This document shows positions 30,447 to 44,653 of a DNA stretch of 64,000 nt, piece after piece. The notes under the pieces were generated by a model, which was not told where the DNA came from, did no database searches, and worked only from the letters and a program-made list of their open reading frames with translations. Origin of the DNA: Catenaria anguillulae PL171 (Eukaryota > Blastocladiomycota > Blastocladiomycetes > Blastocladiales > Catenariaceae); assembly GCA_002102555.1 (NCBI GenBank), contig MCFL01000012.1, positions 493,115 through 557,114 on the forward strand, written 5' to 3'. Every line of letters begins with the position of its first letter. Position 1 is the first letter of the stretch. Position numbers and translations under genes: made by a program.

Positions 30447-30913
30447 GACGGATGAAATTATTGATTGATGACAAGTGCCGATGACCGCCCAGTTGAAATC
30501 GTGTCAGCAGGCGCTTGCAATTGGTCGCTGTTGTGTTGAGACTGTGTGGTCTCAGGTGAGACAGCGACAGAGGGCGGAAACGTTGATCAGAATGCGACAG
30601 CCACTTTGCGGAATGCGGGCCAAATGTCGATTGCCGTGAGTGAATCCGTGCTGTGCATTAACATCATCAAGTACTTACGTTGGCATATTATGCATTAATT
30701 CATCCGGACCTACACATGTGAGTCACATCGAAAGCAATTTTTGGCCGCCGATCGCATCAGGCTTCAATGTCGATTGAGTCAGTCTCACGCAGTTCTGCTC
30801 ACTTCCAATTCACTCCTCAACTCCTCATACATACATAACTTATTGGCAGAAGAAACATCCTTGCCACTACCGGATTTACCAGGAGCACTGCTACGCACAC
30901 CAATACCAACACC
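30447..30913. promoter_or_regulatory. divergent promoter region
   Basis: 467 bp between divergent starts of the disordered-protein gene and QNG1. No gene is seen; both promoters must lie here. Confidence 0.4.
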
Positions 30914-31990
30914 ATGTCTTCGTCTTCCCAAGCACAAGGAATCCCAATTCCGCCCGCTGGTGACCTCTTTGCCACCCTGCACGCCTCGTGCGCACAGCTT
31001 GCAAAGGCAAACAACATCAATATCAACCTCGCCAATGCCAAAACCTTCCTCTCTTCAACGCTGACCCCGGAACTCTATGCTGACCGCGTCGCCCACTCGT
31101 TCCACCCGCTCCCGCTTCGCTTTGACTCGCAAATCGACCACATCAACCTCCTTGCCGTTCGTGCCCTACTCAACTTTGGTTCGGGCTACCGCGCCGAGCT
31201 CAAGCAGCTCACTGGCCGCGGCGCCTGGGACAACATTCAGTTCCTCGTGCTCGCCATGCATCTCGACGCCCACCCGCTCGATGCGCAGCGCATGCACTCG
31301 GTCACGGCTAGTGAACTCGCCATGCTGGCCAACGTGCCTACGCATATTGATGCGCCTAGCCCGATTGCCGGCGTCACCGTGTCTGAGCCGTCGCCTCTGG
31401 TCCCGTTTTTGAACTTGCTCGCGCAAACACTCAATGATACGGGCAAGATTCTGCTCGATCGTGGGTTCATGTCCTTGGGCCAGTTTGTCATGTCGACCAT
31501 TGGCCAGTCGCGATCGGCCGCGACTCTTGTGGCTGCTCTTGCGTCCACCTTTCCTGCATTCCGAGACGTTGCCAGCTTACCGGGAGCGCCAGACAAGCCT
31601 GTCTACTTGCTCAAAAAGGCCCAGTTTCTCGCCATGGATCTTTACTTTTCGCTGCCCAATGTCCAAGCCGTTCATTGGGTCGATATCGCCGACGTGGGTA
31701 TTCCGTCGGACAACGTGATCCCTTCCGTGCTTGTGCACTTGGGCATTCTCGAGCTTCCCGCCGATTTCCTACCCTCTTCGCACGATGTTGGACCCATCAC
31801 TGTCTCGTTTGAAAAGATGGCGGCATTGCGCGCGGCTTCCGTTCATGCAGTCAAGGAAATGACACCCATGTTGCAGTACGAGCCAAAGTTTACCGTAGTG
31901 CTCGGGTCTGTTATTTGGGCATGGGCTAAAGTAGGCGACAATCGGGCAAAAATTCCGCGGTTGACGTTGAAGGATACGTGCATGTTCTGA
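30914..31990 (+). CDS. queuosine 5-prime-phosphate N-glycosylase/hydrolase (queuosine salvage)
   Basis: Single exon, 358 codons, near the usual family length of about 340. The DUF2419 queuosine-salvage family pattern is plain. DHINLLAVRALLNFGSGYR is near residue 77, the helical middle carries FLAMDLYFSLPNV, and then DIADVGIPSDNVIPSVLVHL and the C-terminal YEPKFTVVLGSVIWAWAKVGD. The enzyme releases queuine from queuosine monophosphate so that eukaryotes can re-use it for tRNA wobble modification. No signal peptide, so probably cytosolic. The start lies in acaccatgtc. Confidence 0.92.
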   Translation: MSSSSQAQGIPIPPAGDLFATLHASCAQLAKANNININLANAKTFLSSTLTPELYADRVAHSFHPLPLRFDSQIDHINLLAVRALLNFGSGYRAELKQLTGRGAWDNIQFLVLAMHLDAHPLDAQRMHSVTASELAMLANVPTHIDAPSPIAGVTVSEPSPLVPFLNLLAQTLNDTGKILLDRGFMSLGQFVMSTIGQSRSAATLVAALASTFPAFRDVASLPGAPDKPVYLLKKAQFLAMDLYFSLPNVQAVHWVDIADVGIPSDNVIPSVLVHLGILELPADFLPSSHDVGPITVSFEKMAALRAASVHAVKEMTPMLQYEPKFTVVLGSVIWAWAKVGDNRAKIPRLTLKDTCMF

Positions 31991-32241: not shown

Positions 32242-35200
32242 ATGCATCCACCCCATATCTTGTTGGTTGCTGCGATTGCCTTCATATCTGCCGCGCAGGC
32301 CGTCTTCGGCGCTCAATGGCCTGCAATCGCCCAAGTTCAAGCTCGAACAAAGCAGCGATGTCGCGGCACCGATAGCGGCGCTCCGTTCCCAGCTCAGTCA
32401 CAGACTTCAGCATCGGCCGCTACTGCCGTGGACCCTCCATTTCGCTCCCTCATCACACATGACCAGAAATGCTTTGACGATGCCATCTCCGCCTCGGACC
32501 TCGATCCTTCATTCAATGTCACGATGCTGTTGGCCACCTGGGACTCTTCCAAAGTCATGAACACGCTCGCTGCCATCCTCTTGCAAGAGCGATTGGGCAT
32601 TCGCGCGGTTGCTGCATACTCGTCCGAGATCGAGGCGTATATGTTGGCAACGACCGGAAAGGACTATTCGACGGCCAATGTGCGCAACCTGATTGAGGAT
32701 GGCGGCGCAACGTGCGATCTCGAGAACTGGAATGAATCGCACACGGGCGGCCAGCCAATTGAATCGGTTGCAGAGGCGCTTGTTGGATACCTTGGTACCA
32801 CTTCGTGGATGGTGCCTGACTACGTGATCAAGTATGACAACGACTACAACTCTTACATATCCTTGAAGTTTGTGAGCAAGGCCCAAATTTTCAACCCAGC
32901 ATACGCCGCGTCCATTGACTCTATCCCTCGCCCGCCAACAAGTGCTGAAACAGCCAGTCAGCTTGCGACTTCGCAGGGAGCTTGTAATCCGGCAGCCCCT
33001 GGGTTCAATGTGACGCAGTGTCTGGTAAGTGCGCTGGACCAGCAGGCCGCCGCAGGTATGCGTGGCGTGCTTGTTGCACCAAATCAAACGTATTGGGGTG
33101 CAATGGAGGCCGTTGTGATTCCGAGTCTTGGGCTCAAGCTCGACATTCAAGAGATCAACCCGCCGATTGATGTGGGAATCTACAACTCGCTCAAGCACGC
33201 GTACACCCAAAGACAGCCATGGATTGGCGTACGATTCTGACTTCTCTCGAAGCGAATAAAACGTCTGACTCACTCAATCCTTGATTGATAGTATGTATAT
33301 TCGCCCAGCGCCATCTTGTCGCGCGAGGCCAACTTTTCACTTTCGCAAGTCTCGCTCCCCGCCTGGACGCCTGCTTGTGACATCGAGTACGAGCTTCATG
33401 GAACTTCATCATGTGCTTACGCGTCCACCTTTGTCAAACAATTCGTGTCCAAATCGCTCATTCGCCACTCCAAGCCCGCCTTCGACCTTCTCACGTCGAT
33501 TCGCATGGTCGATGGCGACATGTCCGACATGCTCGGGTCCATGTTCTTTTCAAACGCTTCCGCATTCAACGTGTCGTGCGCTTGGCTCAAGGCCAATCCC
33601 GCAAAGTGGGAATCTTGGCTGCCGCGGTGGAACCGAACACGGCCCGTGTGCGAAGCGGGATCCGAAGCGGTCAAGCGCGGGGTGCACAGCTGGGAGTGTG
33701 TTGGGTGCGCGAGTGGCAAGTTTAACTTGGTCAAGAACGGAACGTGCTTGCCGTGCCCAGCGGGAGCAACCTGCCCTGGTTCACCTGGGCCGGGGCCACC
33801 GAATCCAGCGGCAAATCAGATCTTGGTGAGTCAAGGGTATTGGTATGATGAAACAAGCCCAGAAACAGCACCAGGGCTTTACTTGTGTCAGGGCGAAAGG
33901 TGTTGTCAGCAAGGTGCGTGTGCGCTCAAGGAGACTTGTCCGCCAGGTCGGTCCGGGGTCATGTGCAATGCTTGGTAAGTCAGACTGCTCTCTTGTTGGC
34001 GCACGCCTGTGGCATGGTCGAAACTAACCAACTTGCTCGCGTGCAAAGTGCGCTGCCAAACCATTACCAATGGAGCGGTGTTTGCGTCGATTGTGGAAAC
34101 CCGGAAAATGCGGCCACTGGGCTATTGTCGATTCCAGTCCTCGCAGTCTTGATTGCTATTGCCGTGTTTTTGGTCGTCTGCAGCACCCGCGAGTCCATCT
34201 TTGTATCCGATTTGGTCCGTCACTTCCCCTTCACTCCCCTCATTGTCTCTTTGCGACTTGAACCATATGCCCCCCTCCCCCCCTTGTCCAATTCATAGCT
34301 GCTGTTTTACCAACTCGCTACGTTCATCATCAACCGAGACGACGTTGCCAGGATCATTGTCATCAAGGCGGCAACATTTGATATTGACTCGCTTTTCGAC
34401 GGTTCTCTACCGAAAGGTATTCACTTCCGTCTGTTCTATCTTCTAACGTCAACCGCTCACCTGAAGACCATGCATGTCGGCTGACTTCCCATAGGCATTT
34501 GCGTCCTGTACGTTCGCTGTTCATCAAGGGCAAATCGCCTGGACTCTGACACGGACAGCCACACAATCCATCTGTTGTGTAGTCCTCTGTCCAACCTCGC
34601 CCGGCTTACCTACAAAGCTCTACTACCAGTTTCCCTCTGGTTTACTCTCGGGCTGTATCACCTCGTCGCCACGGCGCTCGTCCGCCTGTGTCCCAAATCG
34701 CGACATCTTGCACACCTCCAATCCTGGCTCCCAAAGGCTCTGCACGACCCTCAAGGCGTCTGGCATTTCTTTTTTGTGCGCTACTGCGTCCTCTTTACGC
34801 TGACTGTCATGCCTATTGTTGAGGGCGCACTCAAGCTGCTCAATTGCCGGCAAATCGGGACCCGAGGCCAGTTTCTCGTCGAGGCGCCCGACGTGCAGTG
34901 CTTTGTGAAGGACCACATTCCCGCCTTTATCTATGCGGTCGTGATTCTTGTCGTGTGTGTCGGAATCATTCCAGTGGCGACGTTGCGGACCATCTTGCGG
35001 ATCATGCGCGAGGGCAAGTTGGGCGACGAGCAGGTCAAGGCTCAGTACGGCGTGTTTTATGGGGCGTATCGGAGCCGGGTGGCCGCGTATGGGGTCGTTG
35101 ATATTGTCAAACGGGCAGTCATCGTCATGGCGTGTACGATTGTTCGCAAGGATACGGATGCAGAGTATTTGTTCAACCTGATGATCGTTGCTTCGCTGAT

Positions 35201-36029
35201 GTGCGCTGCTTTGGTTCGAGGAACGGACCTTTACTGAGGAGCTGACCTGTGCATGATTCATCTTCCCATCCATACACAGGTGGATGTGTACAGTTGAGCA
35301 CTGGTACACGCAACCGCTGCGCTCGCGCTTCGAAAACCAGTTTCGATTCGTCACTTACATGTCCACCTGTATGCTGTTTCCTGACCCTGACTCACGTTCA
35401 TCGACGGACCCAGGCTCATCCGCATCTCGCCACTACTTGTAGTCGCGCTTTGCGCATCGTCCATGCTCAAACTCGACTCATCGCACCAGCAACACGACCT
35501 CGCCACGGCCCGCCTCATCTTTCTGGGCATTTATCTCCTTATCCCCTGCATCATGTGCCCTTGGTATGGACTGTACCTGATTCTGTCTCTGCGACGCGAA
35601 GCCAAGCACGGCCAGTCACCCGACGGTGAATCTGATATGCCAAGGCACGCAGCGGGCGAAGCGGAGTTGAAGTCGTGGGGCGCCAGGTTAAAGCTAGATT
35701 CGCGTATTCGCGACCATCAGGCGTCACGGTTGATGCGGTGGTATAAGGTGCTCGGGTCGGCGCGGGACTTTTTGGGATCGGGCGAAGCGCTCGCCAAATC
35801 TCAAGAGGGTTTGGCATCTGAACGCAAGCCATTGACAGGCCCGGTCAAGAGCGGCAAGGTGGTGAGTACTGCGGCGCCCGTGGATGAAGAAGAGGAGTAT
35901 TCCCAGCAAGCAACAGAGACGTCTGCCCGTCCCAGTGCGATAGACGACAAGCCTTTGTCATCAAACCCTCCTCGAACGACTGGCGCTGGTGCAAGTGGGG
36001 ATGTTGTGAGAGGCTGCAGTTTGGATTAG
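32242..36029 (+). CDS. OpuAC-domain, Cys-rich, multi-TM receptor-like protein 1
   Basis: Eight exons (32242-33228, 33292-33974, 34049-34214, 34299-34416, 34495-34507, 34583-35200, 35280-35368, 35443-36029) sum to 1,086 codons exactly. A signal peptide is followed at about 75-440 by a type-2 periplasmic-binding fold of the glycine-betaine (OpuAC/ProX) kind. Its markers are LATWDSSKVMNTLAAILL, CDLENWNES, GTTSWMVPDYV and SDMLGSMFFS...AWLKANPAKWESWL. A Cys-rich GCC2/GCC3-like region spans 465-577 (GKFNLVKNGTCLPCPAGATC). Seven or eight membrane helices follow to about 932, then a cytosolic tail. Betaine or amino-compound sensing at the plasma membrane is a reasonable inference, unproven. The paralogue lies at 41041-44653. 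Exon 5 is a 13-nt microexon. Confidence 0.85.
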
Positions 36030-36222
36030 CAGTTCATGTTGACCACCCTAACATCAGACCGCAGAAAGTTGCGTTAAAAAAATGTATCACAGTACAGACA
36101 TGAGAGCAGAGGAAGAAAAAAGGACGACAACACAGGAAAACGATGCAATGGTTTTACAGTAATGGCAAAGAAACAACAGAAACCAAGTCTAAAGCACACC
36201 CGGCCCATGCGCCACACACACT
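36030..36222. other. 3-prime to 3-prime intergenic gap
   Basis: 193 bp between converging stop codons of receptor-like gene 1 and FEX. No gene. Confidence 0.4.
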
Positions 36223-38257
36223 TCATCCCATCAAAAACAAGGGAAGCCCCAAGCCGAGAACCATGAACACGACTGACGGCAAAACAGAAACAAGAATATA
36301 GCCCGTCGCCTTTCTGGGTTCCATATCGTCCACCTCGCTGATAAACGACGACACGGTCGAAAGCGATCCGCAGTACCCAAGCACAATCGGCTCGACGAAC
36401 GCCGCCCACCCATCCACCGAGCTTGCAGCCGTTGCCTTGACTGCGGCGCGCAACCCAGCGTAAATCAAGACGGCCACCCAATTGGAGGCGAGCGTGCCGC
36501 CAGGAGAGCGGAACATGGTTCCAAACATATACCGGGTCAATGCGCCCAACGGACCCAGCGACACGGCCAGAAGCGCTTGCGACGTGGGTTCGGCCACGCC
36601 CCACAGCACGTACGACGCGGCCGTTCCGCCAATGGCCAAGAACCACAGGAGCAGTGCCAGTGTCACAGTGAAGCCGTCGCGAGGCGAAAGACGGGCAAAG
36701 AAGGTGGGTGCGCCGAGGGCAATTGGGTAGTTGAAGCTCGGGTGGGCGACAGGGAAGCCGAAGCCGGGCATGATTGAACCGAGATGCAAGCCGATACGGA
36801 AGAAGGTGTGTGAGAGCGAAAAGGCAGTGAGGAGCAGAAGTGCAACCGAGAGGTACTGGACAAGGTAGAAAGAGTAAGCACAAAGAAATGCCGAGTAACA
36901 GGCAATAGCAAACGCAACATACGTGAATGCCCACTTTCCAAGCGGTTGCATCAGAAACAAGCGGTCCAACCGAGATTGAAACCACCGTCGAAAACGATGT
37001 CAACGATCCACACAACCCTGTAGCCAAACCCATGTACAAGGGCAAGTAAATTCTCGTCAAATAATCCCGACCTTGGACGACCCAGCCCATGATGAACGAT
37101 CCCAAGAGTTGTGGCAGGTAAAGTTGGGCAAGAGCTGCCCACATGACGGCGGAGCCCAAAAACGGAGACCATGGGGCATCGGCAACTGGCATGGATTGGG
37201 CGGCAATCTGCAACGGCGACTTGAGCATGGCTATTCCGCCCGAGACGGCAATGCGCAAAACAACGCCGACGAGGGAAAACAAAAGAATCGAGGCAGAGAT
37301 GGGAATGTGGTGGACAGCAATCGTTGCAACGTCTTCGTTTGCACCGTCGTCATCTTGGTCGTCGTGCAAGTGCTTGACCGACTGCCAATCACCGGCAATT
37401 GATGAGCCAACGCCGATATTGTTGCGGTGAATCGACACTGCCCGAGAAAGATCAACTTCGGTCGGTGGAGCTGCTGTGTTGTTGGACAATTGGACATAGC
37501 CATGACTTGAGAGGTAGTGATTGTTGTTCATGGGCGCAGTGGTGGAGAATGGGTGCGACCGGCCGGACCGAATCGATTCTTTGTCAGGCTCGGATCCTGC
37601 AGAACGCCCTGCGGTCGTTGTGCTTGTGGTGCGCATGCGAGCGGCCGAAAGGGCGAGGGGCGACATGAGGTGAGGGCCAACCGCCGCTCCATGGCCGCCG
37701 CCCTGGCCAGAGTGGAAGGCCACTGAGGCATCGACCGAGGGCGAGCGGGCATGGCGATAGGGCGAGGCGTGACGGTCGTTGTTGGTAGCCATTGCAGAGA
37801 GTGGAGACATGAGAAGAGGTTGCGACGGCTGATTCATGGCATTGGCGATTGTTGATTGTGGGGCCCAAGACATGGGCCGACCTCCGGGACTGTGGCCACT
37901 GCCGCCTGTTATGCTGTCAAGCGACCGAACTCGCCCATGCAAGTGCGGGTAGGAGCCGGCGGCGGGAGGGGTTGCAGGGCGCCCAGACCCCAAGGGTGAG
38001 TGTGAGCCAACCGCTGCCAAGGACGACCGATGTGAGTCATGCCGGCGAGGTGCGAGACGAGGAGATGACGTGGAGCGATACAGAAGAGGAGATGCGACAC
38101 CAGATTGGGAAGCTGCTGCTGTTCCGGGATGAATGCCGCCTCCGCTCCATGCAGCCGCCGACGAGTTCGAATATGACGAGGCGTGAGGCGCAAAGCTGCC
38201 AGTATCGCGGTTTCCACGGTTGGCAGCCGGATTCGCGTTGGACTTCGTGTAAGACAT
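36223..38257 (-). CDS. fluoride exporter (CrcB/FEX type), one frameshift
   Basis: The start is the ATG 38257; the frame continues upstream only without an ATG. Two CrcB-type domains are present. The first has QLLGSFIMGWV and MGLATGLCGSLTSFST. The second has GPLGALTRYMF, GTLASNWVAVLIYAGLRA and VLGYCGSLSTVSSFI. Fungal FEX proteins are fused double CrcB domains that expel fluoride across the plasma membrane. The frame changes once, inside the first domain just after SFST (plus-strand cc at 36985-36986). Removing one base restores 677 codons. A Ser/Pro/His-rich N-terminal extension of about 300 residues precedes the first helix, much longer than usual for FEX, and may be regulatory. Confidence 0.85.
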
Positions 38258-38807
38258 GTTGGGAACTGAGAAGAAGGCCAGGAGCGATCGTATGAGCGGA
38301 AAACGGTGGAAATAGAGAAGTATGATAGGCACCCCCGTTGGCAGATTGTAGTAGAATAGGTACAGCTAATGCTTGCGGGGCGACGTCAATTGTCAGGGAG
38401 CCTTGTCGGCTCTAAAAATGAGAACGTCGACGAGGTGATGCAGCGGCAGAGAGGGAGGATTGCAGTGTGGGAAGAGAAGGGCCATGGTTACTGGAGCTTA
38501 CATCCATATTGTGCCAGCACCGACAGTCGCTGTAAGCCACCCACTTGGCCACCGACCAACCACAATCATGTCCCATGTGTCTCGCAGATGTCGAGGCATA
38601 TGGATTCTCGACGCCGGCTTGACATTTTTGGTTGCCACTACCAAGCCAAGGCATGACCGAGGAGCGAGGTGGGCTCTGCGAACACCTCTGACGCGTCAGT
38701 TCAACTTCGACAAGGCGAATACTCACCTGTCATCCCAGCCATGAAGATATCGGGTCTCCTCGAAAAGACCCGACGCAATAGCATATCTTTGTCTCAATAA
38801 TCCTATC
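38258..38807. promoter_or_regulatory. divergent promoter, FEX / LRRC45
   Basis: 550 bp between divergent ATGs of the fluoride exporter and LRRC45. No gene is supported in the interval. Confidence 0.45.
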
Positions 38808-40950
38808 ATGGCGGACCTGCTGCGGTCTGCATTCCTTCGCGAGTGCCGGGCATTGGGCATCCATCCAGAACCACGTGTGCTCGAACAACTGGTGGACCAT
38901 GCGCTCGACAACACGAAGGCAAAGGGAAAGTGGCAAACTCGCCCGGGAAGCCCAACGGCCATGGCCACACGTCTGGATCAGCCACTTCTGAATCTTGGAG
39001 GACAGGCCTTGGACCGCAAAGTATGTATTTCCGTCGTCGAGTTTTTTATCTATGGCTCTTGCGTTCTTGGAGATTCACTGCTCGTTCCCACAACTGGCTT
39101 GTACAGTCGATTCTGGCACTATCCAATGTCCTCAAGTCAGACTCTTTCTTTCGCACCATCATCCTGGCTGACGCATACCTGAATGAAGATGGCACAACAT
39201 CCATTTGCGACGCGCTAAGAAACAACACGTTCCTCGTTCACTTGGATCTGCGTGGGAACAACATTCAGCTCGAGGGCGGGGTCGCGATTGGGGCATACTT
39301 GAAGCATACGGTCACTTTGGAAGAGTACGCCACACACCTACTGCACAGGCATTGCAATCAGCGGCTCATACTATGATCGTGCACAGGCTGGTTCTCGAAT
39401 GGAACTCGATTGGTCTTTGGGACAATGCAATCGCTGCCATCGGCGACGGGCTCGCCATCAACACGAGCCTCCGCTATTTGGACCTCAGAAACAACAAGAT
39501 CGGCCCCAGTGGTACTCAAAGGCTCACTCAGGGGCTCAAGGTCAACCAAACCCTTCTAGCCCTGGACCTCCGTTGGAACAATTGCGGTCACCTCGGCGGA
39601 CTGGCTTTGGCGGACCTCTTTCAGTTCAACTCGACACTTACCTCGCTCGAGCTTGTTGGAAACGATATTTCGGACTCTGTTCTGCGCACCATTCATCTTG
39701 CCCTCGACAGAAACCAACGCCAGTCGCGGTCAGCGCGTGACGCGATTCGTCTTCACGACGCACTTGCCGGCGCGAACCTGGCCCATGCTGATACGCTGGC
39801 TTCGCTTCACCGTGAGCTTGCAGCAAAAGACTCGGAAATATCCCGCCTCCACGGCGAGCTGGCGGACCAGGCAACGAGCGTCAAGGCCGCAAAAGCCGAG
39901 GCCAAAGCGGCCAAGGAGGAGACTGCGCGCGTGGTCCGCGAGCGAGATGTCCAGACCAAGCATGCTAGACAAGCCGAGGAGCAGCTTGATGCCGCTCGCG
40001 AGTCGCATGCGAACTCGGAACGGGTCTTGCGCGCAACCATTGCGGAATGGCAGCGTAAGGCCCTCGAGTGGGAATCCAAACAGGACAAGGCGATTGCCGA
40101 GCGGGATGCAGCGCGTGAAGAGGTGGCCATGTTGAACAGAGACATTGAGCGGCGACGTGAGCGGGAGCGCAAGTTGGTCTTGGAAAAGGAAATCGAGCTG
40201 GAGGAGCTGCGCCGTTCGGCCAACGACAAGGCCGTGGCAATCGAAACAAAGAAGGACCAAGAGCTCGCAAAGGCCATTGCGAATCTTCACCGGAAACTGG
40301 ACGATTCAGAGACCAAATTGGCCGAAAAGGATCACGACATGCGTGCTATGCGAGAGCAGCACGAGGAAGAGAAGCGCGTGCTGCAGCGAAAAATTGAGGA
40401 GACGGAGATCAAGGCAAAGAGCAACCAGTGGTCGAAGTTGCAGGGTTTGGAAGAGGAGGTGACGGCGCTCAAGTCGGCAAAAGACAGCTTGCAGCGTGAG
40501 CATGACCGGAATCAAGTCACGCTACAGGCCATTACGCGCGAGCTGGACATTGCCAACAGCAAGGCCGAGCGCGAGAAGAAGGTGACCGACGACGTAAGAA
40601 TTACACTCACCGCCCAAATCACCCAGGTCCAAGGCGAACTAGCGGATACACGAGCCAAGCTTAAAGAGACAGCGGCACGTGCATCCGAGGCTACAGCAGA
40701 TGCCGAACAGCTGTATCGGGACAAGGAGCGGCTGAAGCGCGAGTGCAAGGAGTTGCAGCGCGAACTGGATGCCACTCGCGAGGAGTTGCGGCGGTTGGAG
40801 GGAATCGAGGAGCGAAGGAGACAGGGCGAAATGAATCGCATCAAGCAGCTCGAGTCCGCTCTTGGGAGCTACATTCACGGCGCAAGGGCGGACCTAGCAA
40901 GCGAGACGGTCTCTGGAAGCGGAACAAGGTCTGGGGGTCGAGGAATATGA
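38808..40950 (+). CDS. LRRC45-like leucine-rich repeat, coiled-coil protein
   Basis: Exons 38808-39020, 39107-39324 and 39387-40950 give 664 codons exactly. Residues about 60-245 carry leucine-rich repeats in the ribonuclease-inhibitor style: HLDLRGNNIQLEGG, then across intron 2 LVLEWNSIGLWDNA, YLDLRNNKIG, LDLRWNNCGHLGG, SLELVGNDISDSVLR. These match LRRC45. The remaining 400 residues form a long charged coiled coil, ending with the family's NRIKQLESALGSYI-type tail. LRRC45 is a centrosome-linker and basal-body protein needed for ciliogenesis in animals. Here it is presumably at the flagellar basal body of the zoospore, which supports a zoosporic fungus. Confidence 0.88.
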
Positions 40951-41040
40951 TAACGCTGCCAGTTTTGTGATTGCTTTGACCGAGCTTATCACTTGCTCGT
41001 TTCAATGTTTCAGCATTACGTACACTATTTATTTGATTTT
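40951..41040. other. 90-bp gap between converging genes
   Basis: LRRC45 and receptor-like gene 2 end tail to tail 90 bp apart. Their 3-prime untranslated regions probably overlap. Confidence 0.5.
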
Positions 41041-44000
41041 TTACTGTTTCCCAACCTGTGTGTGAGGTGCGCTGGCCACGCTCATGTCCTCAACATCGTT
41101 GACAGATTGAAGTATGCTTCGAATCGGGCGAGTCATGGTCTTTTTCCCGTCTGCTACGAGACTATCACTCTTGCGTGCCATCGAGCCACTGGCAGACGGC
41201 GTCATTGGGGATCGCTCACTTGATACAGACGAAGGCACCAGCGCAGCTTGTGATGGTTTTTGCAAAATGTCCGCCGACGTGTCAAAATCAGTCGCAGAGC
41301 CAATGACCCGGTACCAGCTCATCAGTTTGAGTGCTTGCTCGTCGCCCATTTCATCCAGACGAAGGCGTGACGCAAGGAGCGAGGAGGTACGTCGCTGATC
41401 GCGGGCATGCAGTCCTGCGAGCGCTTGCTTTCGTAGATTGAGGATCACAAAGAGGCCGTACCATGGGGCGAGAACGCAGGGTATGGCCAGAAAGATGCCG
41501 AGGAAGACGAGCCGGGTTGTGTTGATAAAGGAGTGCTCTGGGTGCGACTCTTGAAGTTTGAGGGTGGAAGCCATGCAGAGCGCGACTGAAGTGAAGTGAG
41601 ACGAAGGAGATGTCAGTGCTGTAGATGGTAGTCTAGGTGTGACACGACCGATGCATCAACGTACATGCTGAAATGTAGCTGACAAATCGGAAGTTGTTTT
41701 CAAACCTGGATCGCAATGGTCGAGTATTCCAATGCTGCAATCGCAGAAATCATGTGTGGTTAGGTTTGGGTCCACCCGTTGACGACAATAAACAAGTATG
41801 TGCCTCTAAGGTGTAGAAGTAGAGAATCGTCGCAACCACCATCAAGTTGAGCAAATACTCTGCGTCTGTATCCCTTCGAATCACCGTGCACACAATGACT
41901 GCGACTCCTCGCTTGACCATATCGACAACTCCGTACCACGCAAACTGTGGACGATAATGCGTGAAGAATATGCCGTACTGAATCCTTGTATTCCGGTCAG
42001 TGAGCTTATTCTTGAGAATGATCCTCGTCATGATGCGCAATGTAAGCAATGGGATGACTCCCACGCACAAAGTCAGTACCACGACGCCATAAACGAAGGC
42101 AGGAATGTGTGGACCGACAAAACATTCCACGTCAGGCGCTTGCACGAGAAATCTTCCGCGGTTGCCGATGGCGCGGCAGCTGATGAGGCTCAGTGCACCA
42201 TCAATGAGCGGCATGCAGGTGAGCGTGAACAGGACGCAGTAGCGAGTGAAGAAAAAGTGGCCAAGCGATGGAGCCGTCCGAAAGTCGTCGGGCATACGCG
42301 TGATGATCCAGTCGATGAGTGGCAGATGAGAGCGAAGCTTGAGGAGAATCGCGGCCAGTACGTGGTAGCTGGCGAGGATAAGCCAGAAGCCGAACGGCAG
42401 AAGCGCTTTCCCAAAGATACGGTCAAGGTTGGTGAGCGGCCTGTTTGGCGAGCCGAAGTCGTTAGAGTCCTTGCTTCCCATCAATCACAAACGTTGACAT
42501 ACAGGACGCAGAGATTTTGCGGCAGCGCTCCATCAAACAGAGACCCGATGTTGAATGTGACAATCTTTAAAATGATGATTCGAGACGTGTCGTCCCGCGC
42601 GAGAATGAACGACCTGTCGAAAAACATGATGTTGTGAGCTCAAACAAAGTGAAGTGCAAGATAGCCCCGTACGTTAGCTGGTAAAATAAGAGCTGTAAGG
42701 AACATACAAGAAGAACCAGTGTGTGTGAGCGTAGAGCAGGTGAATTGACATCGGACAGTCAAGACATACCAGATCAGACAGAAAAATAGACTCCCTGGTC
42801 CGGCAAATGACGACAAACACGGCAACGGCAACCACAAGGCAAAGGACGGGAATTGCTAACAACCCGGCTCCATAAGTCCTTGGATTGGAGCAGTCCACGC
42901 AGACATCGTTCCATTGAGAATGTCCAGGCTTGGCGCACGCGTTGCACATGACGCCAGTGCGACCTTCGGCGCAAGTTGCGTTGAGTGGGCACATGCCGTT
43001 TGGGCAGCATGTTTCTGGCCGCGAACACTTGAAGAACCCAGGCAACGTTGGTCGACTCGTTTCGTCGTACCAAAACCCCTGCTCGACAAGGAGCTGGTCT
43101 CCTCCAAGACAATGCGCACCAACAGGGCATGGGAGACAAGTTCCATTGGTTATCACGTTGAATGTTCCCACTGGGCATTGCACACACTCCCAGCTGTGCC
43201 GCGATCGGCGAGAAGCCATTTCTCCGGCAAGACACAATGGACGTGCCCGATACCAAGATGGCAGGATGCTTTCCCACTTGTCTCGATTCGCTTTGAGCCA
43301 TCCGCAGCTGGACTCGAAGACAGTCAGGTTTTGAAACGTCATACCACCGAGCATGTGATTCATGTCTTGCACGTCGATGCGAAACTTGGTGAGAAAGTCG
43401 TAGGCCGGCTTGGATTGCCGTTCTAAGCGAGTTGTGACATATCGCTTGACAAATGTCGTGCCGTAGCCGCACGGATATGTGCCATTTGCAGCATACTCGG
43501 CGTCGCATTCAGGAGTCCATTGCGGTAGTGAGACTTGGCTGAGGTTGACACCCGAAAGGGATGAGAACATGGCATTGGGAGTGTACAGATACTAAGGATG
43601 AAGCCAGAGAAGAGCCGTTCAGATTCATCATGATCGATCTTGACTACGATGGCGCACATGAAGTGAAAAAAAAAAAATGGAACGTACCCCAAGCCAAGGC
43701 TCACGTCGACGACTAGCCTCGATGAGTGACGTGACAAGCTTACTCTCTATTCCAGGCGGATCGATCTCGTGAATGTCAAGGTTGAGCCCTAGGGTTCTAA
43801 TGATAACGGCGTCCATTGCGGCCCAGTAACGCTGATTTGGCGCGTGGATGATGCCTCGAGTGCCATTCCCAGCCTGTGCTTGCAGAGCACCCAGTAAACA
43901 GGCGGTGATGTTGTAACTTGGCGACGAAGATGTGCAAACGGGCCAGTTGGTGCGGTTCGTGACAATTTCAAGCAATGTCGGTGGTCGTTGGATATCGTCA

Positions 44001-44653
44001 ATGGTGGGGACCACAGATGGGTTGAATATCCTTGCCTTGTCGTACTTGAGGGAAATGTATGATCGAAGATCTGGATCTGCCTGGCCAACGTAGCTGGGCA
44101 CAAACCACCCAACTTCACCGAGATACCCGAGCAGCCCTTCGGACACTCCCTCGACTGGCCTTGGTGTCGAACCCGCATACTCGTTCCAGTTCTCAACGTC
44201 AAAATCTGCATACCCTTGTGCGATCACGTTGCGTGTTGAATAGGCGTCCGTGCTGTAGTCGATCCCAGTCGTCTCTAACAGCCAATTGTATAAGGTGTCC
44301 GTGTGCAATTGCTGAACGGAAACACCAATTCGTTCGCGCAGTACAATAGCGACGAGTGAGTTGGCCAGGAGGTTGCTGTCCCAGCCAGCGACCAACGACG
44401 TGATATTAAGTGCCTTGTCAACATCCGCACTTGAAATCGCGTCATCAAAACACTGTAATCCTTGGTTGGGGACCATGTACTCCAACTGTGTGCGTGTGGT
44501 TCTTGTTTTGAAGGATGGGGCATCGAGGCCGCTTCGCATGGGTGGAGGTCCAAGTCTTCGTCGGTTGCGCCGCGGTGGCTCGGCTGTGACGATGAAGGCC
44601 AAGCTCAGCAACCAAGTAATGATCGGAAAGAGAGTCATCAACGATCGTTGCAT
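41041..44653 (-). CDS. OpuAC-domain, Cys-rich, multi-TM receptor-like protein 2
   Basis: Paralogue of the 32242-36029 gene. The start is the ATG 44653 (MQRSLMTLFPIITWLLSLAF, a signal peptide); the frame upstream lacks an ATG. Exons are 44653-43688, 43591-42770, 42692-42673, 42613-42503, 42440-about 41780, about 41730-41665 and 41585-41041. The order is OpuAC-like domain (LVAGWDSNLLANSLVAI, FDVENWNEY, GEVGWFVPSYV, CGWLKANRDKWESILPSW), Cys-rich module (GTFNVITNGTCLPCPVGAHC), 7-8 helices and a tail. The junction near 41.73-41.80 kb, before HWNTRPLRSRFENNF, could not be resolved with canonical sites and may hide a base error. Ligand sensing is inferred from architecture only. Confidence 0.82.

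Follow-up and report, generated by a model that had tools for sequence, protein, structure and literature searches.

Results

A pair of face-to-face fusion genes

Catenaria anguillulae is a zoosporic fungus that attacks nematodes. The window, i.e. the whole 64,000-nucleotide stretch of contig MCFL01000012.1 (strain PL171) that was analysed, carries two related genes, A and B, which are oriented face to face and have their start codons at 32242 and 44653. Both spliced products are open throughout: 1086 aa for A, the length given by the earlier note, and 1056 aa for B, with 50.7% identity between them (1025 codons compared). In each protein, a signal-like start is followed by an OpuAC-type domain, a neck with 15 Cys, a membrane part with multiple helices and, finally, a tail. 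The features, in window coordinates, are:

32242..36029, + strand: gene A, 1086 aa, 8 exons (splice model)
32242-33228, 33292-33974, 34049-34214, 34299-34416, 34495-34507, 34583-35200, 35280-35368, 35443-36029, + strand: exons of gene A (splice model)
32467..33636, + strand, approximate limits: OpuAC-type binding domain of A; intron 33229-33291 inside
33637..34104, + strand, approximate limits: Cys-rich neck of A, 15 Cys; intron 33975-34048
34105..35594, + strand, approximate limits: membrane part of A, about nine predicted helices, several introns
41041..44653, - strand: gene B, 1056 aa, 7 exons (splice model)
44653-43688, 43591-42770, 42692-42673, 42613-42503, 42440-41804, 41734-41665, 41585-41041, - strand: exons of gene B, 5' to 3' (splice model)
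41803-41735, - strand: intron of gene B, GC-AG type
43268..44458, - strand, approximate limits: OpuAC-type binding domain of B, residues 66-430; intron 43687-43592 inside
W91, W156, W277, Y323, Y325: cage positions in protein B
42884..43249, - strand: Cys-rich neck of B, about residues 437-558
41431..42883, - strand: membrane part of B, around residues 559-927, nine helices in the best fit, N-terminus out and C-terminus in

In gene B, the Cys-rich neck and helix 1 lie on one uninterrupted exon (43591-42770) together with the C-lobe half of the binding domain, and in paralogue D a single exon of 474 codons runs from the last part of the binding domain through the neck into the helices, most of which it includes. 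Since these single exons bridge the binding domain and the neck or helices, the fusion does not depend on guessed splicing, and we regard it as confirmed. In near-identical copies on contig C417, a spliced-alignment script found introns at corresponding places, including the GC-AG one, an agreement that is not fully independent because the A and B protein models served as queries. Gene B is present at NCBI as a partial record, P0001 (BCR44DRAFT_52485), whose first splice junction is identical to that of our model; this record is a 294-residue fragment without neck or helices, and the fused build of gene B is hidden in the public annotation.

The two paralogues recognized in the earlier note both stood, but the family is larger, with at least five loci in the C. 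anguillulae genome (paralogues A-E; the models of D and E are without their N-termini). A locus F (C19 and C417:73k), which consists of pieces only, some of them with stops, was excluded from all counts. Each of the five paralogues has 7-9 N-glycosylation sequons. Purifying selection acts between near-identical copies (dN/dS: 0.17 for A, 0.34 for B and 0.12 for D).

The ectodomain and its predicted aromatic cage

The whole protein B matched OpuAC (PF04069) above the curated cut-off of 21.2 bits (E=5.8e-9, 36.4 bits), whereas protein A remained below it (E=0.18, 11.8 bits). When the sequences were trimmed to the domain, all five paralogues matched at E<=1 (best value: 3.2e-16), and a genome scan gave OpuAC exon matches above the cut-off for paralogues C and E. 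A profile of the family ectodomain matched the PDB entries 7yle (3.5e-16) and 4xz6 (1.1e-10), followed by 3l6g (0.0015) and 2reg (0.012), both named as betaine or choline proteins, and by 7ahc (0.0033), an entry named ABC transporter permease subunit, which we take to be OpuA; the first unrelated proteins appeared at 0.28. The match to the PDB binding proteins covered both lobes, strongly in the C-lobe and weakly in the N-lobe (i-E 0.55). An AlphaFold2 model of the ectodomain, made from an alignment of three rows, had a mean pLDDT of 31.9 and was set aside. To judge from the sequence matches, the ectodomain is probably a type II venus-flytrap fold of the betaine class, and the bacterial-type glycine-betaine-class binding domain proposed earlier is borne out.

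The earlier note had also suggested that the ligand pocket be inspected for an aromatic cage. We compared it with DmpX, a DMSP-binding protein (7yle; pocket residues from excerpts of PMC10030565), and with TmoX, a TMAO-binding protein (4xz6; pocket residues from excerpts of PMC8918994). DmpX W35 and W84 and TmoX W55 and W177 align with W91, W156 and W277 of B, and each of these Trp is found in all five paralogues; DmpX W152 appears to correspond to TmoX W177, and TmoX W102 to DmpX W84. The alignment of DmpX W84 is the least secure of the three assignments: HMMER offset this residue from the family Trp by some residues, and the two came into register in a MAFFT alignment that included the 7yle fragment along with two OpuAC pieces from class C genes. 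At the position of DmpX Y200, the paralogues A-E have Y, Y, Y, F and Y. The fourth cage site, W202 in DmpX, is occupied by Y, Y, H, Y and W, so that the Trp is substituted in four of the five, with Tyr or Trp in all but C, which has His. DmpX Glu113 is retained in D and E only (T, V and I in A, B and C). These conserved positions indicate that an aromatic cage for the quaternary group is mostly kept; because Glu113 is lost in A, B and C and the fourth Trp is replaced in four paralogues, A, B and C may bind another compound.

The neck and the membrane module

The neck contains 15 Cys in every one of the five paralogues. It had been described as GCC2/GCC3-like; a Cys-rich neck is there, but its matches to NCD3G and to Ephrin_rec_like (presumably the former GCC2_GCC3) are both below the cut-offs. 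For the membrane part, nine helices are favoured over the 7-8 proposed earlier, judging by hydropathy and loop charge with segments set by hand: if nine helices and an outside N-terminus are assumed, the inside loops carry 17.0 K+R per 100 residues and the outside loops 7.4. A ten-helix topology was rejected, as it would place basic loops outside.

The profile of the membrane module found no match in the PDB at E<=10, and an NCBIfam scan of the neck and helix part gave 0.036 at best. The five-helix exon was modelled with AlphaFold2 from an alignment of two rows (mean pLDDT 51.7), and a Foldseek search with this model returned no match better than E 5.4; both were set aside. Searches against 5.8 billion proteins, with about 8000 candidates scored in each, gave no homologue for full-length B or for the neck and helix alignment, and the binding-domain alignment found only Catenaria's own partial record. 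The latter alignment gave 67 pattern matches in prokaryote genomes and 82 in viral contigs, none of which was confirmed.

Within the C. anguillulae genome, the neck and membrane module occurs in three further genes (C79:139k, C79:217k and C112:714k), at 22-31% identity across alignments of about 300-420 residues. The ectodomains of C79:139k and C79:217k, the two of the three genes that were scanned, are of the beta-helix or PMP-repeat type. The membrane module is therefore reused with different ectodomains in one genome.

Which kind of membrane protein?

The order of flytrap, Cys-rich neck and helices is that of class C (glutamate-type) GPCRs such as the metabotropic glutamate receptors, and A and B might be divergent members of this class. 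An NCD3G match of 1.5e-4 in the neck, below the cut-off (B: 22 bits vs 38.9), points the same way, as do the OpuAC-class C fusions known from Allomyces (excerpts of PMC3251606) and present in the Catenaria genome. A genome search for NCD3G gave six matches, none above the cut-off. In the helices, however, 7tm_3 (PF00003) was not among the matches listed at E<=10 for eight module sequences, a search in which matches above about 0.1 are mostly removed by the HMMER filters. When the module was compared by profile with eight class C domains from Catenaria itself, the result was null (probability 0.1%), and these eight domains, used as a positive control, found GABA-B2 in the PDB at 2.1e-41, where the module found nothing. 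The predicted helix number of about nine also argues against this class, and in L061, the OpuAC-class C gene examined most closely, the reading frame leads from the binding domain's end to 7tm_3 with no Cys-rich neck between them. By profile, the membrane part is without class C similarity, and we consider this assignment very improbable. About as improbable is an uptake component, in which the binding protein would be anchored to a membrane domain resembling a transporter: bacterial OpuAC proteins do work with osmolyte ABC importers, and ABC2_membrane_2 reached 0.001, below the cut-off, in two of eight module sequences, but the same module lies under beta-helix/PMP-repeat ectodomains in the two genes scanned. 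The earlier note had named a transporter-family match of the helices as counting against its reading; on the helix part, 0.001 was the best that any such family reached. The note's view that the helices are not those of an ABC permease agrees with the absence of PF00528 matches from the Catenaria genome, with all 14 control genomes positive.

We consider A and B probably to be chemoreceptor-like proteins of the cell surface for a quaternary-ammonium, amine-oxide or sulfonium compound. A sharper form of this explanation, in which the flytrap opens a pore of a TRP-like membrane module, is conceivable, if rather unlikely. Among Pfam families, fungal TRP (PF06011) matched the helix part best (paralogue C: 5.1e-4, 19.4 bits, residues 192-353 vs profile 229-398; B: 0.0026, 17.1 bits, in an overlapping part of the profile; best value with the neck included: 2.3e-4), and in eight controls of class C, families other than 7tm_3 gave 0.032 at best. 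Against this, PF06011 matched only two of eight helix-part sequences (two of five with the neck), below the 28.5-bit cut-off where bits were given, and the module is without any PDB match. Since the implausible ABC2_membrane_2 attains 0.001 as well, values of 1e-3 are about noise level here; Lig_chan at 0.011 in paralogue C looks like noise, too. A genome search for PF06011 found nothing, and nothing in its controls either, and is thus uninformative. The TRP signal in the membrane part appears faint and sub-threshold, and it seems unlikely that the betaine-class flytrap controls the opening of a nine-helix, TRP-like channel, with a bacterial osmolyte-binding domain placed on a module otherwise found under beta-helix ectodomains. 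If true, a fungal ligand-gated channel would have arisen independently of the glutamate receptors.

Discussion

In the chemoreceptor reading that we favour, the OpuAC-type flytrap would bind the small quaternary-ammonium, amine-oxide or sulfonium compound outside the cell in its aromatic cage, with betaine, choline, TMAO, DMSP or ergothioneine as candidates. Its closure would be relayed via the Cys-rich neck to the nine-helix module, which bears no GPCR signature and may signal inward as a channel or otherwise. The surface chemoreceptor proposed earlier gains from a betaine-class binding domain and a build typical of surface receptors, with a presumed location at the surface. Chemical cues guide zoosporic fungi to their hosts, and the receptors involved are, to our knowledge, hardly known; the family points to a readily testable ligand class.

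The earlier note knew of no characterised protein of this build. OpuAC on a neck and membrane chassis of the A/B type was indeed not found when searched for, but OpuAC was joined to class C GPCR domains in Allomyces in 2012 (excerpts of PMC3251606) and is so in Catenaria, and the novelty is therefore the second chassis. The proteins look like known pieces in a combination that we have not seen described before. One genome carries one type of solute-binding domain on two chassis, class C GPCRs and the uncharacterised nine-helix module, and the comparison of these two gave no sign of a relation. Two chassis are also known for beta-helix ectodomains, the A/B-type module in Catenaria and the class C receptors of gut fungi (excerpts of PMC5168858).

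Among known systems, DmpX and TmoX, OpuAC solute-binding proteins, have ectodomains homologous to those of the Catenaria family, in which the three cage Trp are invariant; A, B and C differ from DmpX in lacking Glu113. Unlike bacterial OpuAC proteins, the family is eukaryotic and has N-glycosylation sequons as well as an extended middle part, and its binding domain is fused to a neck and helices. The C79 genes share its module, but have beta-helix/PMP-repeat ectodomains in place of OpuAC, and their loop from helix 4 to helix 5 is shorter. A type II flytrap on a membrane protein is also the build of ionotropic glutamate receptors and of insect ionotropic receptors; their flytrap is split by the pore domain, whereas that of A and B is N-terminal and contiguous, with no pore domain recognised. 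The Allomyces receptors were chosen via GPCR Pfam domains, those of the glutamate family via 7tm_3 (excerpts of PMC3251606), and the class C receptors of gut fungi have beta-helix ectodomains as well as solute-binding domains described as of the sugar type (excerpts of PMC5168858). As far as these excerpts describe them, these receptors of zoosporic fungi resemble A and B in joining a bacterial-type flytrap to a membrane protein of several helices; A and B differ from them by a module that shows no relation to class C by profile and by their Cys-rich neck.

Fusion of an OpuAC-type domain to a membrane protein

The earlier note had reported two paralogues, each with a signal peptide, a complete OpuAC-like domain, a Cys-rich module and membrane helices. 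Their facing start codons are its coordinates (32242..44653), and five loci of this build were found in the genome:

Genes of the A-E family
32242-36029, + strand: gene A, spliced product of 1086 residues
44653-41041, - strand: gene B, spliced product of 1056 residues
C24:427.9-430.7 kb: paralogue C
C119, near copy on C121: paralogue D
C442: paralogue E

A and B share 50.7% identity (1025 aligned codons), and each has a hydrophobic start that resembles a signal peptide. With the A and B models themselves as guides, a spliced-alignment script placed introns at corresponding sites in the near-identical copies that lie on contig C417, including a GC-AG intron in B; the first splice junction of B is present in NCBI's partial gene B record. 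The fusion is seen inside one exon of B (43591-42770) and inside a 474-codon exon of D. It is real, and an artefact is excluded. The architecture described for both paralogues holds in outline.

Between A and B lie a CrcB-like gene (36226-36999, - strand, PF02537 6.2e-13), CrcB being the fluoride exporter family, and a frame (39187-40947, + strand) in which leucine-rich repeats precede an extended charged region that looks like coiled coil. A queuosine salvage protein gene is found at 30842-31987 (+ strand, PF10343 4.5e-20).

The family in the genome

C. anguillulae PL171 is a blastocladiomycete with a genome of 41 Mb, and the window is the end of a 557,114-base contig. With full-length B, the neck plus helices and the binding domain as queries, the sole protein-database match among the candidates scored was a protein of this organism. 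In all five loci, the spliced binding domain, neck and helices form an open frame; the D and E sequences start downstream of their N-termini. The near-identical copy of A and B at C417:4.2-16.5 kb (coding identity: A 97.1%, B 98.5%) is probably the other haplotype; further near-identical contig pairs are visible in the genome match lists. The low dN/dS between near-identical copies (A 0.17, B 0.34, D 0.12) points to purifying selection on A, B and D. A degenerate sixth member, F (C19:65.6-66.3 kb and C417:73.3-73.9 kb), was recovered only as pieces, some with stops; C is a better-scoring match to it than A or B.

Ectodomain and aromatic cage

All five members matched OpuAC (best 3.2e-16); gene A as a whole protein gave only 0.18. 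Searched against PDB, the five-member profile hit 7yle, the DMSP-binding DmpX (PMC10030565), at 3.5e-16 and 4xz6, the TMAO-binding TmoX (PMC8918994), at 1.1e-10, with 3l6g, 7ahc and 2reg next in the range 0.0015-0.012 (by name, two are betaine or choline proteins and one is an ABC permease subunit); unrelated proteins began at 0.28.

The pocket residues published for DmpX (W35, T64, W84, E113, Y200, W202) and TmoX (W55, W177, F220, W222), in the available text of these papers, carry the same numbers in the printed chains. The alignments did not reach DmpX W152 and A153 or TmoX W102, F106 and E131; we infer that DmpX W152 corresponds to TmoX W177, and TmoX W102 to DmpX W84. Three cage Trp are invariant in all five members (W91, W156 and W277 in B, W156 being positioned via a MAFFT alignment and W277 via TmoX W177). 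The fourth cage position in A-E reads Y, Y, H, Y, W and the DmpX Tyr200 position Y, Y, Y, F, Y, while Glu113 is retained in D and E only. From these residues, the pocket appears shaped to take a quaternary or sulfonium group, and D and E may accept other ligands than A, B and C. Ergothioneine is reportedly another OpuAC ligand (PMC9732360). An AlphaFold2 ectodomain model, made from a three-row alignment read through an intron, had a mean pLDDT of 31.9.

Neck and membrane part

The neck contains 15 Cys in each of the five proteins and resembles NCD3G and Ephrin_rec_like, with matches below the cut-offs. With helix segments placed by hand on the five-protein alignment, a nine-helix model with the N-terminus outside gave 17.0 K+R per 100 loop residues on the inner side vs 7.4 on the outer; a ten-helix model inverted the charge (8.5 inside vs 16.5 outside). 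The multi-helix part claimed earlier stands; in place of its 7-8 helices, hydropathy and loop charge on these hand-set segments favour nine.

In profile searches with eight helix-part sequences, 7tm_3 was absent among the matches listed at E<=10. Comparison of the helix-part profile with eight class C domains of the same genome was null, and PDB gave no match at E<=10; as a control, the same treatment of the class C domains returned GABA-B2 at 2.1e-41. By these comparisons, the helix part gives no class C signal. Its sole suggestive family was PF06011 (TRP), which C matched at 5.1e-4 and B at 0.0026; adding the neck brought the best value to 2.3e-4. These matches were below cut-off wherever bits were given, and an implausible family appeared alongside at 0.001; for the eight class C controls, no family except 7tm_3 scored better than 0.032. 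A profile search of the genome found no ABC permease.

The same neck and helices occur in three further genes (C112:714 kb, C79:139 kb, C79:217 kb; 22-31% identity). The ectodomain scan, which covered the two C79 genes, found beta-helix or PMP-repeat ectodomains (1.9e-13, 3.6e-11). Searching with one of the three returned those three and the OpuAC family and nothing beyond them, counts that are lower bounds.

Elsewhere, a single 1138-codon frame (C404:104347-107760, with a similar match at C9) joins an Ephrin_rec_like Cys-rich ectodomain (2.5e-7) to a PDEase_I cyclic nucleotide phosphodiesterase domain (3.5e-68) and probably has one membrane helix; its predicted domains are those of a receptor-type phosphodiesterase.

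Proposed mechanism

The analysis shows the fusion, the homology, the cage positions and selection between copies, and it found no class C relation and no ABC permease. In the proposed mechanism, the flytrap at the cell surface would close on a betaine-like compound, and the Cys-rich neck would transmit the closure. The PF06011 matches make a TRP-like channel a possible, weakly supported output of the helix module. Use by zoospores is a guess.

Comparison with OpuAC receptors of class C

The genome also carries OpuAC on class C GPCRs: four of the six OpuAC matches from one genome search lie directly upstream of a same-strand 7tm_3 (C101, C146, C290, C198); the C290 and C198 loci look like near-identical copies, leaving about three distinct genes. 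At one of these loci, L061, a single frame runs from a piece aligning with the end of the A-E binding domain straight into 7tm_3, and the Cys-rich neck is absent; in this frame Pfam detects nothing but 7tm_3, the OpuAC match of the same gene lying upstream. The class C repertoire is very large, with at least 150 exon-level 7tm_3 matches genome-wide (of 169 candidates, 150 were scored).

The general idea, a fungal membrane receptor with a bacterial flytrap, is known. The available text on gut fungi describes class C GPCRs with type II solute-binding and beta-helix ectodomains (PMC5168858, 2016), and that of Krishnan et al. 2012 reports OpuAC in six Allomyces glutamate-family GPCRs (PMC3251606). 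The word OpuAC is absent from the accessible part of a classification of fungal GPCRs (PMC12842992). For OpuAC on the neck and helix module, no published account was found in the literature searched, which included few subscription journals; the A-E chassis with an OpuAC ectodomain is a new combination. The earlier remark that no characterised protein of this build was known holds, within that literature, for this chassis and has to be qualified for OpuAC on GPCRs, given the Allomyces proteins. Because the latter were selected by 7tm_3, they have, as far as the available text tells, a class C GPCR build, whereas the helix part of A-E carries no class C signal.
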